A stretch of DNA of 64,000 nt from NCBI RefSeq assembly GCF_001306415.1, contig NZ_LDJX01000002.1, positions 708,425 to 772,424 of the forward strand, in the 5' to 3' direction. The notes under the pieces were generated by a model. It saw nothing but the letters and a program-made list of their open reading frames with translations, was not told where the DNA came from and ran no database searches. The position numbers were made by a program, and so were the translations under genes. This DNA comes from Croceitalea dokdonensis DOKDO 023 (GTDB lineage Bacteria; Bacteroidota; Bacteroidia; Flavobacteriales; Flavobacteriaceae). Below, in pieces: positions 23,924 to 31,698 of this stretch. Each line of letters starts with the position of its first letter. The stretch's first letter is position 1.

Positions 23924-23945
23924 GCCCTGTGTTCAGGGCTTTTTT
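23924..23945 (+). terminator. Intrinsic terminator after the PfkB kinase gene
   Basis: GCCCTG (23924-23929), a four-base loop and CAGGGC (23934-23939) are followed by six T. It ends 14 bases before the PurF-type start codon, so that gene needs its own promoter or read-through. Confidence 0.8.
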
Positions 23946-23958
23946 ATTCGTACAAACT

Positions 23959-25857
23959 ATGAGCGATGCCATAAAACATGAATGTGGAATCTCATTGATT
24001 CGATTATTAAAACCGTTGGAGTATTACAAAGAGAAGTACGGCACCGCATTCTATGGGGTAAACAAAATGTACCTCATGATGGAAAAACAACACAATCGCG
24101 GTCAGGATGGTGCCGGGTTTGCCAGTATAAAATTGGACATGCAGCCCGGAGAAAGATATATGAGCCGTGTCCGTTCATGCCAGCAACAACCCATACAGGA
24201 TATTTTTAAGCAAATAAATGACCGTATCAATGCTGCCATCGCGGATGCCCCGCAGCTATGGGACGATGTTGCTAGACAGAAAAAAGAAATTCCCTACATA
24301 GGTGAGCTGCTCCTTGGTCATGTACGTTACGGAACCTTTGGAAAAAACAGTATTGAAAGTGTCCACCCTTTTCTTAGGCAAAACAACTGGATGCACCGCA
24401 ACCTTATTGTGGCAGGAAATTTTAATATGACCAATGTAGATGAACTCTTTGGGAATTTGATTGAGCTGGGCCAGCATCCCAAGGAAATGGCAGATACCAT
24501 AACGGTGATGGAAAAGATTGGTCACTTTTTGGATGATGCCGTTGCCAAAATCTACAAACAGATTAAAAAAGAAGGTTTCAATAAACGCGAGGCCTCACCC
24601 ATTATAGCAGAACGGCTAAATGTGGCCAAGGTGCTCAGAAAAGCAGCTAAAAATTGGGACGGCGGATATGCCATGGGCGGACTCTTAGGTCACGGCGATG
24701 CTTTTTTATTAAGAGATCCTGCAGGCATTAGGCCCAGTTACTATTACAAGGATGATGAAATTGTAGTGGTGGCATCAGAACGGCCAGTGATTCAGACCGT
24801 ATTCAATGTTGCCTATGAAGAGGTTAAGGAACTGGACCCGGGCAAGGCCATTATCATCAAAAAAAATGGCAAAGTTTCCTTTGAGGAAATACTAAGTCCA
24901 ACCGAAAGAAAGGCATGTTCTTTTGAACGCATCTATTTTTCCCGTGGCAGTGATAAAGAAATTTACAAAGAGCGCAAAATGCTGGGGAAACTTGTTTTTC
25001 CTGAAATTCTTAGGGCGATAGACAACGACATTGAAAATGCGGTATTCTCCTATATCCCCAACACTGCGGAAACCTCCTTTCTGGGAATGGTTAGGGAAGC
25101 GCAAAATTATTTGAACCGTAAAAAAGAAGACCAGATATTGGCATTGGGGCCTAAGATTACCAAAGAAGAACTTCACCGCATCCTAGACGTGAGGCCCAGA
25201 ATTGAAAAAGTGGCCATTAAAGATGCCAAACTACGGACGTTCATTACACAAGACAATAGTAGGGACGACCTAGTGGCCCATGTTTATGATATTTCCTACG
25301 GTTCTGTTAAACCAGAAGATAACCTTGTCATCATAGATGATAGTATTGTACGGGGAACCACTTTAAAAAAGAGTATTTTGAGAATGCTGGATCGCCTCAA
25401 CCCTAAAAAAATTGTGGTTGTTTCCTCTGCGCCCCAAATTAGATACCCGGATTGTTATGGTATTGATATGGCAAAACTAGAAGACTTTGTTGCTTTTAAA
25501 GCAGCATTGGCACTACACAAAGAAAGGGGAACGGAAAAAGATATCGAAAAAATTTACAACAAATGTCTGGGCCAAGTAAAATCCAAGGATAAAGATGTAA
25601 TCAATTATGTGAAAGAATTCTATGCGCCGTTCACAGCTATTGAAATTTCAAAAAAAATAGGCGAAATCCTAAGTCCACCGGATATTGGTGCCGAAGTGGA
25701 AATCATATACCAAACCATAGAAAATTTACATATGGCTTGCCCACACAATTTAGGGGACTGGTATTTTACCGGCAACTATCCTACCCCAGGTGGGAATAAG
25801 GTGGTCAATAGGGCTTTTATTAATTTCTTTGAAGGAAAAAATCAAAGGGCATATTAA
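23959..25857 (+). CDS. purF: Amidophosphoribosyltransferase-type enzyme, long form
   Basis: The N-terminal glutaminase domain begins with Cys at residue 9 after a short propeptide (MSDAIKHE), as in class II amidotransferases, and has HNRGQDGAGFAS and VRYGTFG. The C-terminal half has the PRPP loop VIIDDSIVRGTT. At 632 residues it is longer than ordinary PurF (about 470-510), a variant known in Bacteroidetes. I expect it to form phosphoribosylamine from PRPP and glutamine. The ATG at 23959 is preferred; an upstream in-frame GTG lies inside the preceding terminator. Confidence 0.85.
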   Translation: MSDAIKHECGISLIRLLKPLEYYKEKYGTAFYGVNKMYLMMEKQHNRGQDGAGFASIKLDMQPGERYMSRVRSCQQQPIQDIFKQINDRINAAIADAPQLWDDVARQKKEIPYIGELLLGHVRYGTFGKNSIESVHPFLRQNNWMHRNLIVAGNFNMTNVDELFGNLIELGQHPKEMADTITVMEKIGHFLDDAVAKIYKQIKKEGFNKREASPIIAERLNVAKVLRKAAKNWDGGYAMGGLLGHGDAFLLRDPAGIRPSYYYKDDEIVVVASERPVIQTVFNVAYEEVKELDPGKAIIIKKNGKVSFEEILSPTERKACSFERIYFSRGSDKEIYKERKMLGKLVFPEILRAIDNDIENAVFSYIPNTAETSFLGMVREAQNYLNRKKEDQILALGPKITKEELHRILDVRPRIEKVAIKDAKLRTFITQDNSRDDLVAHVYDISYGSVKPEDNLVIIDDSIVRGTTLKKSILRMLDRLNPKKIVVVSSAPQIRYPDCYGIDMAKLEDFVAFKAALALHKERGTEKDIEKIYNKCLGQVKSKDKDVINYVKEFYAPFTAIEISKKIGEILSPPDIGAEVEIIYQTIENLHMACPHNLGDWYFTGNYPTPGGNKVVNRAFINFFEGKNQRAY

Positions 25858-25939: not shown

Positions 25940-25947
25940 TATATTCG
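25940..25947 (+). promoter_or_regulatory. Putative -7 box of small RNA copy 1
   Basis: TATATTCG differs from TAnnTTTG at one base and lies seven bases before the conserved block. A TTG at 25922-25924 is closer (15 bases) than usual for a -33 element. Confidence 0.4.
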
Positions 25948-25953
25948 GACCAT

Positions 25954-26028
25954 ACCATAGCATAAGTAGGTTAAGTTCATGGTAAGATTTGGGGCAAAAA
26001 AGGTGGAGACTTCTCCACCTTTTTTATT
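25954..26028 (+). ncRNA. Small RNA gene, copy 1 of a three-copy tandem family
   Basis: A 41-base block beginning ACCATAGCATAAGTAGG (25954-25994) recurs twice more in this spacer. It is followed by a perfect hairpin (25996-26025) that ends in a T-run. A -7-like box lies just upstream. Promoter, invariant 5' part and terminator together predict an RNA of about 75 bases. CCAT and ATGG near the ends of the block could pair. I do not recognise the family. A short frame starting ATG inside the block (MVRFG...) is an alternative reading. Confidence 0.65.
25996..26028 (+). terminator. Terminator of small RNA copy 1
   Basis: A 13-base perfect stem, AAAAAAGGTGGAG with CTCCACCTTTTTT, encloses a four-base loop (26009-26012); the 3' T-run forms the U tract. 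Confidence 0.8.
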
Positions 26029-26325
26029 TTAACCTTCTTTTTCCCTTCCAAAGAATGGTCACAAGAAACCAAAAGGTAACATTAGATTATCCGCTGGACG
26101 GATAAGAATCCACCCAATAATCCGAACATGGATAGCGCTGCCCAGATAAAATTCTTCACAGTTGTGGTATTTAACTACTTAGGTGCTTTTTAAATATCCA
26201 GAGGCACATGTAAAAAATTGTAGGAAATCATTGTAGGTTACATGGGTATAAAAATACATTGTTACCATTTACCGCTTTTAATGGGGTTTTATCTAAAACT
26301 GCAACTGCCTACACCAGCTTTGCCA

Positions 26326-26333
26326 TACATTTG
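26326..26333 (+). promoter_or_regulatory. -7 box of small RNA copy 2
   Basis: TACATTTG is an exact TAnnTTTG match, four bases before the conserved block. No clear -33 TTTG is seen. Confidence 0.55.
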
Positions 26334-26337
26334 GAGA

Positions 26338-26408
26338 ACCATAGCATAAGTAGGTTAAGTTCATGGTAAGATTTGGGGAAGAAGGCGGACTATGTCCGCC
26401 TTCTTTAT
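26338..26408 (+). ncRNA. Small RNA gene, copy 2 of the tandem family
   Basis: The same 41-base block (26338-26378) is identical to copy 1 base for base, then diverges completely into another perfect hairpin (26379-26405, stem GAAGGCGGAC/GTCCGCCTTC with a three-base loop). Identity that stops sharply at the hairpin while the hairpin itself is preserved only in structure is strong evidence for a transcribed RNA with an interchangeable terminator. Predicted length is about 70 bases. Confidence 0.7.
26379..26408 (+). terminator. Terminator of small RNA copy 2
   Basis: A 12-base stem (26379-26390 with 26394-26405) and three-base loop end in TTCTTTATG, a weak T-tract. Confidence 0.7.
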
Positions 26409-26501
26409 GTTTGAAAACCAACACTTTATCGATGAAATGCACATTTTTGGATTTTGCCTCCTCCTCTTCCAAACAAAATAAATGTTAAAATTTCTTTGTT
26501 A

Positions 26502-26530
26502 TTTGCCACAATACCAGTAATTTAGTTTTG
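26502..26530 (+). promoter_or_regulatory. Promoter of small RNA copy 3
   Basis: TTTG (26502-26505), 17 bases, TAGTTTTG (26523-26530) fits the Bacteroidetes promoter; the conserved block begins at the next base. Confidence 0.6.
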
Positions 26531-26606
26531 CCATAGCATAAGTAGGTTAAGTTTATGGTAAGATTTGGGACGAAAAGGGTAAGTTAATTCTTACCCTTTT
26601 CTATTT
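26531..26606 (+). ncRNA. Small RNA gene, copy 3 of the tandem family
   Basis: A 39-base block (26531-26569) matches copies 1 and 2 except for one C to T change (TTCATGG to TTTATGG). That change would lengthen the possible CCAT/ATGG pairing to CCATA/TATGG, so it does not harm the putative structure. It is followed by a third, unrelated perfect hairpin (26572-26601). Predicted length is about 75 bases. Confidence 0.7.
26572..26606 (+). terminator. Terminator of small RNA copy 3
   Basis: A 12-base perfect stem, GAAAAGGGTAAG with CTTACCCTTTTC, has a six-base loop (26584-26589) and is followed by TATTTT. Confidence 0.75.
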
Positions 26607-26677: not shown

Positions 26678-27286
26678 TTATTTATGGGCAGCAAAGTGCT
26701 TGCTAACCTTATCCCAATTGATGACATTAAAGAACGCGCCAACATAATCAGGTCTTCTATTTTGGTAGTTTAAATAGTAAGCGTGCTCCCAAACGTCCAA
26801 ACCTAAAATTGGTGCACCTTCACAACCAACGCCTGGCATAATGGGATTGTCTTGATTAGGGGTGGAACAAACCTCTAACTTTCCGCCTTTGTGCACGCAC
26901 AACCAAGCCCATCCGGAACCAAACCTTGACCCCGCGGCAGCACTGAACTTTTCTTTGAATGCATCAAAAGAACCAAAGGAAGCATTTATGGCCTCTGCCA
27001 ATTCTCCGGTTGGGTTTCCTCCGCCATCTGCGGACATCACCTCCCAAAATAAGGCATGGTTATAAAAACCACCTCCATTGTTTCTCACCGCGCCATTGGA
27101 CATATCCAAATTGGAAAGAATATCAACAATATCCTTACCTTCCAACGCTGTGCCCTCAATAGCTGCGTTAAGTTTGGTCGTGTATCCATTATGATGCTTT
27201 GTATGGTGAATTTCCATGGTTCTTGCATCTATATGTGGTTCCAATGCGTCATAGGCATAGGGTAATTTAGGCAATTCAAAAGCCAT
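26678..27286 (-). CDS. sodA: Superoxide dismutase, Fe/Mn type
   Basis: This 202-residue cytoplasmic enzyme dismutates superoxide. The four metal ligands are visible: His in EIHHTKHH, His in FYNHALFW, and Asp and His in [19 protein letters not shown]. The metal (Fe or Mn) cannot be fixed by eye. It has its own terminator and a likely promoter, so it is monocistronic. Confidence 0.95.
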
Positions 27287-30504: not shown

Positions 30505-31698
30505 ATGTACGGAAAACTTAAAGAACATCTACAGGCAGAACTTGCGAGTATAGAAGAGGCAGGATTATTTAAAAAGGAGCGCATCATCACTTCGCCCCAA
30601 GATGCCGTAATAAAAATAAGTACGGGTGAGGAAGTCATTAATTTTTGTGCCAACAACTATCTTGGGCTCTCTTCCCATCCAGAGGTCATTAAGGCTGCTA
30701 AGGATACTTTGGACTCGCATGGTTTTGGCATGTCTTCCGTCCGTTTTATCTGCGGAACGCAGGATATCCATAAGGAGCTGGAAGCCAAGATTGCAGATTT
30801 TTATCAAACCGAGGATACCATATTATACGCTGCGGCCTTTGATGCCAATGGTGGTGTGTTTGAGCCATTGTTGACTCATGAAGATGCCATTATATCAGAT
30901 TCTCTAAACCATGCCTCTATCATAGACGGGGTAAGGCTTTGCAAGGCCAAGCGTTACCGCTATGCCAATAATGACATTGCAGACTTGGAACAACAACTAA
31001 AACAAGCCAATGAGGATGGAGCGCGTTTTAAGATCATCGTTACGGATGGGGTCTTTTCCATGGACGGAAAACTCGCCCCCCTGGACAACATTTGTGATTT
31101 GGCAGAAACTTATGACGCCTTGGTCATGATAGATGAATGCCATGCGACGGGTTTCATAGGCGAAACGGGCCGTGGCACCTTGGAAGAGATGGGGGTCATG
31201 GGTAGAATTGACATCATTACCGGAACCTTGGGCAAGGCACTGGGCGGCGCCATGGGCGGATATACCACCGGAAAAAAGGAAATCATAGAAATCCTAAGGC
31301 AACGATCAAGGCCGTATCTGTTTTCCAACTCTCTTGCCCCTACCATTGTTGGGGCATCCATCAAGGTTTTTGAAATGCTAAAATCCGATACAAGCCTGCG
31401 GGACAAACTGCACGAGAATACCAGATATTTTAAAGATGGGATGACCAAAGCGGGCTTTGATATCATTGAGGGGGAATCTGCCATTGTTCCCGTAATGCTT
31501 TACGACGCAAAACTATCCCAACAAATGGCAGATATGTTGTTGGAGAAGGGCATCTACGTCATTGGTTTTTTCTATCCGGTAGTACCCAAAGAAAAGGCCA
31601 GAATACGAGTACAACTCTCCGCAGCACATACCAAGGAACATTTGGATAAGGCCATAGCAGCTTTTATTGACGTTGGACAGACCCTAAAAATCGTTTAA
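30505..31698 (+). CDS. kbl: Glycine C-acetyltransferase (2-amino-3-ketobutyrate CoA ligase)
   Basis: The 397-residue PLP enzyme of the alpha-oxoamine synthase family acts in threonine breakdown, cleaving 2-amino-3-ketobutyrate with CoA to glycine and acetyl-CoA. Motifs include [16 protein letters not shown] near the start, [19 protein letters not shown] and the PLP Lys in GTLGKALGG. tdh is not nearby. The two-base spacing behind the helicase suggests shared transcription, although the functions are unrelated. Confidence 0.93.

Follow-up and report, generated by a model that had tools for sequence, protein, structure and literature searches.

The three repeats found between a purF-type gene and sodA are probably genes of a small RNA of about 75 nts that would pair in trans, at two sites, with short mRNA leaders and block the translation mostly of surface-exposed lipoproteins and secreted proteins. 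They lie in the window, the whole stretch of 64,000 nts of Croceitalea dokdonensis DOKDO 023 that was analyzed, and the array and its two neighbors comprise the following features (TSS, transcription start site; bits, score of the covariance model).

23929..25857, + strand: purF-type gene with a glutamine amidotransferase domain (Pfam), the usual upstream neighbor
25940..25949, + strand: -7 box of copy 1, weak or shifted (TATATTCG at 25940-25947; TATTCGGA at the canonical -12 to -5)
25954..26029, + strand: predicted sRNA copy 1 (class A); predicted TSS A25954; 94 bits; fold -24.1 kcal/mol, z -3.9
25966..25972, + strand: seed 1 of copy 1, GTAGGTT (apical loop and two stem bases), antisense to AACCTAC before start codons
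25986..25994, + strand: seed 2 of copy 1, GATTTGGGG, predicted single-stranded, antisense to CCC(A/G)AATC in leaders
25996..26025, + strand: terminator-like hairpin of copy 1, arms of 14 nts
26326..26333, + strand: -7 box of copy 2, TACATTTG
26338..26410, + strand: predicted sRNA copy 2 (class B); predicted TSS A26338; 80.3 bits; fold -27.8 kcal/mol, z -5.0
26379..26405, + strand: terminator-like hairpin of copy 2
26495..26498, + strand: -33-type TTTG box of copy 3, within the conserved upstream region of class C
26518..26525, + strand: -7 box of copy 3, TAATTTAG
26530..26606, + strand: predicted sRNA copy 3 (class C, UUUAUGG variant); predicted TSS G26530; 86.7 bits; fold -24.1 kcal/mol, z -4.1
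26572..26601, + strand: terminator hairpin of copy 3, also flagged by the terminator scan
26678..27286, - strand: sodA (Fe/Mn superoxide dismutase), the usual convergent neighbor

As a preliminary description of this DNA had it, a 39 nts block (CCATAG...TTTGGG) occurs three times in the window, at 25955-25993, 26339-26377 and 26531-26569, and the only difference among the three is a C-to-T change at 26554. With up to 3 mismatches, the 34 nts core was found 3 times in the window and 0 times in 100 shuffles. In the genome from which the window is taken, a 38 nts pattern with up to 3 mismatches gave 3 matches and no further copy, and a 75 nts query found, beyond the array, nothing better than E 0.07 except the complement of the hairpin itself. 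A terminator-like hairpin follows all three copies, in agreement with the preliminary description, but a mechanical terminator scan flagged only that of copy 3; in copies 1 and 2 the U-run lies largely inside the terminator stem. The statement that the three hairpins share no sequence was too strong, as array positions have their own recurring terminator types across genomes, with arms that are often GG(Y)GGA-like.

A TAnnTT(T/A)G box was found at -12 to -5 relative to the +1 purine in the position-specific composition of 352 unique copies. Since this spacing equals that of the Flavobacterium psychrophilum sigma-A box TAnnTTTG (-12 to -5, in the part of PMC9723704 covered), the purine before CCAUAG was taken as the predicted start; transcription of the purF-sodA RNA and its start site are thus predictions made from sequence. 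The invariant block opens with this purine (55% A and 45% G in 351-352 unique copies), and TAnnTTn followed by G or A stands at the expected distance in 278 of the 352. The -7-like box described upstream of each copy is good for copies 2 and 3 and poor for copy 1, where TATATTCG lies two bases upstream of the canonical place, held by TATTCGGA. The copy 1 box is the weakest of the array and carries C where nearly all of 351 compared copies have T; its promoter may be weak, or its start may be two bases upstream. In 80 class C copies about 50 upstream bases are strongly conserved, and the upstream region of class B has a conserved pattern other than that of class C.

Conservation sets in at the predicted first base of the transcript and tapers off into the terminator. 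Among the 352 unique copies, which were gathered at up to 4 mismatches and are therefore biased toward conserved ones, GTAGGTT (seed 1) is present in 351, ATTTGGG (the core of seed 2) in 351 and both intact cores in 350, and the cores are likewise intact in more diverged copies. For all three copies of the window the predicted fold consists of a 5' hairpin with a GUAGG loop, an unpaired stretch with AGAUUUGGG and the terminator, the predicted single-stranded segment between 5' hairpin and terminator being GAUUUGGGG. No two-sided covariation was seen in the proposed CCAT/ATGG stem: substitutions in the hairpin either affect one side only (A-U/G-U) or disrupt a pair, and in no case do the two sides compensate each other, so that the 5' hairpin is compatible with the data and not proven by them. 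Conservation had been said to end where only structure matters; the conserved sequence itself appears to be functional, as it holds both seeds. The block is invariant at all codon positions and variability lies beyond it, from which we infer that it is hardly coding. Judged from the sequence, the gene has its own promoter and terminator and no conserved ORF, as a trans-acting sRNA should. Combined, the limits of conservation, the conserved order of copies described below and the boxes at a fixed distance support the earlier proposal of a transcribed RNA family with redundant copies.

The 38 nts pattern (up to 3 mismatches) was found in 101 of 299 genomes of the family, that is in 84 of 236 genera, and its reversed control in 0. 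A covariance model (R1), made from 44 of the 349 copies that could be extracted, was applied to 46 genomes chosen among family genomes lacking a 38 nts match: 40 gave matches with E 1e-12 or better and 6 gave none. Among 295 genomes drawn from the class and searched with stricter filters, strong matches came from six genomes, all of the same family; neither the 3 other family members nor the 286 genomes outside the family had a strong match. Ten weak matches outside the family (E 0.003-0.009, in nine genomes) were taken as chance because their 3-kb loci contain neither purF nor sodA. Carriers among the matches listed include Maribacter, Zobellia, Arenibacter, Flagellimonas, Robiginitalea, Eudoraea and Kordia. 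Five genomes of a single genus, probably Flavobacterium, carry more diverged copies that retain GTAGGTT and ATTTGGGG. Going by these matches, the block is a family-wide element of Flavobacteriaceae. Against 4227 Rfam families, the window gave 0 matches at gathering scores; a permissive threshold gave 46 weak ones. The best of these, on hairpin stretches, is STnc40 of enterobacteria (32.5 bits, gathering 45), and the list also contains FopS (RF04319; 20.2 bits, E 1.9, gathering 56) and BTnc005 of Bacteroides (18.1 bits, gathering 174.8). In the portions covered of a literature that includes PMC9723704, PMC11697453, PMC5395568 and PMC5069720, this RNA was not found described.

A set of 154 loci, in which many are clipped at the end of the fetched stretch and the locus of the window is counted several times, comprises 111 flanked by both purF and sodA, 26 with purF only, 12 with sodA only, 1 with fabF and sodA and 4 with neither. 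In the latter (L022, L117, L121 and L156), copies of the RNA gene stand without purF or sodA in the fetched stretch and are probably stray copies elsewhere in the genome. Although these 4 of 154 loci lie apart, a dispersed repeat without neighboring promoter and terminator, the case that would have spoken against an RNA gene, is not what was found. Among the matches listed, 86 loci in which both neighbors were found have arrays of 1 (24 loci), 2 (6), 3 (32), 4 (16), 5 (6) or 6 copies (2), and class A comes first and class C last in 52 of the 56 arrays with at least 3 copies. The order is A-B(n)-C, the classes being set by terminator and promoter, and the median spacing of copies is 206 bases. 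One copy in the array of Maribacter antarcticus (L057) has a damaged seed 2 (ACATGTGTG) and is possibly a decaying paralog. The array of the window is A, B, C with a doubled A-B gap: copies 1 and 2 (gap at window positions 26060-26330) are 384 bases apart, roughly double the typical distance, as though an intervening copy had disappeared. A decayed fourth copy in this gap was sought with the covariance model on the + strand and rejected, nothing scoring above 7.5 bits.

The usual location between purF and sodA raises the question of an action in cis on either gene, by attenuation, 3' end processing or antisense pairing with the convergent sodA mRNA. This we regard as very improbable, given that most copies have their own promoter-like box, that 1 to 6 copies stand between the same neighbors, that 4 of 154 loci have neither of them and that the complement of seed 1, TTAACCT, is present in only 3 of 136 sodA leaders, for which sodA was also rejected as a target.

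The preferred reading, pairing in trans, starts from the observation that the reverse complement of the 5' half and loop of the hairpin ends in ATG. The exact antisense of seed 1, TAACCTACTTATGA, was found at 46 places spread over 36 of the 299 family genomes, compared to 19 for its reversed control. In 247 genomes of the class it occurs 2 times, once in the genome of the window and once outside the family (reversed control 15), so that the 240 class genomes not of the family account for a single occurrence; as base composition differs between family and class, the contrast between these counts is not a pure test. The sole site outside the family (L327) also starts a long ORF. An ORF of at least 100 codons begins at 21 of the 45 distinct sites in the family, and 20 of the 45 are start-like (limited open frame upstream) with an ORF of that length, compared to 29 of 922 background YTTATGR sites (Fisher 2e-16). 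Eight further sites open short ORFs, five of a 22-residue type and three of a 29-42-residue type. The 22-codon ORF, MKN(I/L)KRI...KIF(F/L), begins at the exact seed-1 complement in L334, L342, L347, L382 and L287 and seems likely to be an unannotated gene for a hydrophobic micropeptide. The G-U variant of the site (TAACCTATTTATG followed by A or G) has start-like long ORFs at only 4 of 21 fetched sites. The pattern TAACCTAYTTATGD is unusable as a count because the RNA genes match themselves when T follows ATG; 40 sites with A or G after ATG were fetched among the matches listed, two of the genome of the window included.

Ten target products were analyzed with Pfam, of which 8 have families and 2, among them the lipoprotein of the window's genome, have none. 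The families are PAS-histidine kinase, CAP lipoprotein, Big_9 lipoprotein, Ig-like (DUF1573), LytTR response regulator, Por secretion tail, esterase-like (BD-FAE) and laminin-G. With N-termini judged by eye for the label of lipoprotein, the predicted targets are mostly surface lipoproteins and secreted proteins.

In the genome of the window, the two closest matches beyond the array both have a predicted start codon as their exact end, that of a lipoprotein-like gene (contig C14, start near 30777; predicted duplex -29.3 kcal/mol) and that of a PAS-histidine kinase (contig C13; -25.4 kcal/mol). A third candidate is a lipoprotein-like gene on contig C1, the start codon of which pairs with the 5' end of the RNA (predicted duplex -30.2 kcal/mol). 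The median predicted duplex of sodA leaders, which were cut 5 bases shorter than the targets, is -10.9. Loose patterns gave no excess in this genome: 14 matches (3 being the array) vs 36 in the control for a 17-mer with up to 3 mismatches, 37 vs 49 for a 14-mer with up to 2 mismatches, and 114 vs 153 for CCCRAAN{3,26}ACCTAY. Inspection of 18 of 32 two-mismatch sites of the 14-mer revealed no start-like ORF of at least 60 codons, one site lying inside a longer frame. Only close matches therefore count, and the regulon found in this genome is small, with three candidates.

Many of the starts with a seed-1 site have, upstream, CCCAAA(T), which is complementary to GAUUUGGGG. CCAAA lies at most 26 nts upstream in 15 of 21 long-ORF sites vs 1 of 24 others (Fisher 3e-6), an enrichment that is partly post hoc as seed 2 was first spotted in the fetched leaders. 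A gapped pattern that combines the two seeds matched 59 times, in 57 of 299 genomes, vs 16 times for the control. Orthologs of the lipoprotein of the window's genome were then considered: 25 loci (its own included) in 21 of 149 genomes, the others being 28-53% identical to it. Each of the 21 genomes has 3-6 copies of the RNA by the 38 nts pattern, a tie between lipoprotein and multicopy array that may reflect one clade. Among the 25 leaders, CCC(A/G)AAT is present in 18, the seed-1 core in 17, both in 15 and neither in 5, while both motifs together were found in 0 of 136 leaders of sodA, the one gene used as control. One site is missing in L396, L398, L399, L401 and L410, and both are missing in L400 and L413 (doubtful starts), L417 and L418 (distant paralogs) and L409 (T where others have A or G). 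Predicted duplexes of 21 of the 25 leaders have energies lower than the 5th percentile of the sodA set (135 leaders), and these 21 also beat or tie at least 190 of 200 shuffles. Complementarity to unlinked mRNAs thus exceeds chance and is conserved in orthologs, except for the loose patterns in the genome of the window.

The two leader motifs, CCC(A/G)AAUC and AACCUAC, could also be recognition sites of a protein or of the ribosome whose match to the RNA is a coincidence, the RNA having another function. AACC is indeed present in 40 of 136 sodA leaders, and lipoprotein leaders share more upstream similarity, with what looks by eye like an ECF-type promoter. The motifs are, however, antisense to the two most conserved segments of the RNA and stand in antiparallel order, and the single exact seed-1 complement in 240 class genomes outside the family comes from a group without strong match to the RNA; we find such a coincidence quite unlikely. 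The variable position of CCC(A/G)AAT is A in 12 leaders and G in 6, and as this variation lies opposite a U of the RNA and allows G-U pairing, it points to RNA pairing and not to a protein site. As for the promoter, in L394-L416 (A/G)CAATA, at least about 17 bases and CGTT are seen some 40-95 bases upstream of the lipoprotein start; a regular expression for this ECF sigma promoter-like pattern matched only 4 of 25 leaders, and the resemblance is a remark by eye, not a result.

Both invariant segments thus have antisense counterparts in the correct antiparallel order, CCC(A/G)AAUC and then AACCUAC(UUAUG) at the start codon, and in the model of pairing in trans each RNA would start at the purine before CCAUAG and fold into the hairpin with the GUAGG loop. 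Seed 1 (the loop, up to CAUAAGUAGGUUA once the hairpin opens) would pair with UAACCUACUUAUG, the AUG of which would be the start codon; seed 2, the unpaired tail GAUUUGGGG, would pair with CCC(A/G)AAUC, some 5-15 nts upstream. Pairing across or just before the start codon would exclude the ribosome and translation would fall; the copies would differ mainly in their promoter, so that one RNA could answer several signals. The redundant regulatory RNA proposed in the preliminary description is thereby supported, the antisense matches to start regions supplying candidate targets and a proposed mechanism. A larger claim, to which we give an even chance, is that the RNA is a family-wide master repressor of the flavobacterial surface, acting as a loop-and-tail clamp on entire leaders of 30 nts, at two sites of which one takes in the start codon, with the separately regulated promoters of A-B(n)-C all feeding the same RNA and its dose summing several signals.

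CsrB-type RNAs bind and titrate a protein, and this RNA could mainly do the same, for instance with an RRM or cold-shock protein, the antisense matches being secondary. The near-total invariance of the hairpin and the several near-identical copies would fit, and FopS RNAs are themselves bound by RbpB (PMC11697453, in the part covered). A sponge, however, predicts neither ordered exact complements of two segments at start codons nor a variation that preserves G-U pairing, and titration as the main function is in our view unlikely. With pairing in trans as the preferred mechanism, an RNA nearly invariant over much of the family, a predictable locus, predicted targets and orthologous leaders make the mechanism testable.

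Few base-pairing sRNAs have been studied in Flavobacteriaceae. The literature search found Rfp18, and candidate sRNAs of F. columnare are reported (PMC5395568, in the part covered). Rfp18 and the other Rfp RNAs of F. psychrophilum are, like this RNA, conserved non-coding RNAs of the same bacterial family; in the part of PMC9723704 covered, Rfp18 is linked to protease expression and its pairing region is described as the third stem-loop, for which it is probably another RNA.

The Proteobacterial sibling sRNAs Qrr, OmrA/B and AbcR are encoded redundantly, by tandem or paralogous genes that have one seed in common and a promoter each, and are generally Hfq-dependent. Redundant copies, shared seed and separate promoters are common to them and to the RNA described here, and we know of no sequence relation between them.

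The closest parallel is FopS of Bacteroides. According to the part of PMC11697453 covered, FopS resembles this RNA in being multicopy, with a conserved 5' part and a variable Rho-independent terminator, in its Bacteroidota sigma-A-type promoters, in the AGGUUAA that the FopS seed and the seed of this RNA have in common and in the complementarity of the seed to mRNAs of envelope proteins around the start codon, the latter being predicted for this RNA; the tested FopS target is a SusC transporter. Pairing at start codons of envelope mRNAs is, for the RNA described here, found by sequence only. Homology of the two was rejected, the local alignment to the FopS seed consensus being equalled by 273 of 2000 shuffles and, for the diverged type, by 581 of 2000. 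The 5' part of FopS is unstructured, whereas this RNA has a predicted 5' hairpin-loop seed and a tail seed and is single-stranded only behind the hairpin; FopS genes lie, in the part of that source covered, in several genomic contexts, whereas this RNA has one main locus. It is very likely, as a prediction, a start-codon antisense repressor that functions like FopS without belonging to that family. If so, Bacteroides and flavobacteria would both use antisense pairing at start codons, through RNAs without significant sequence similarity.
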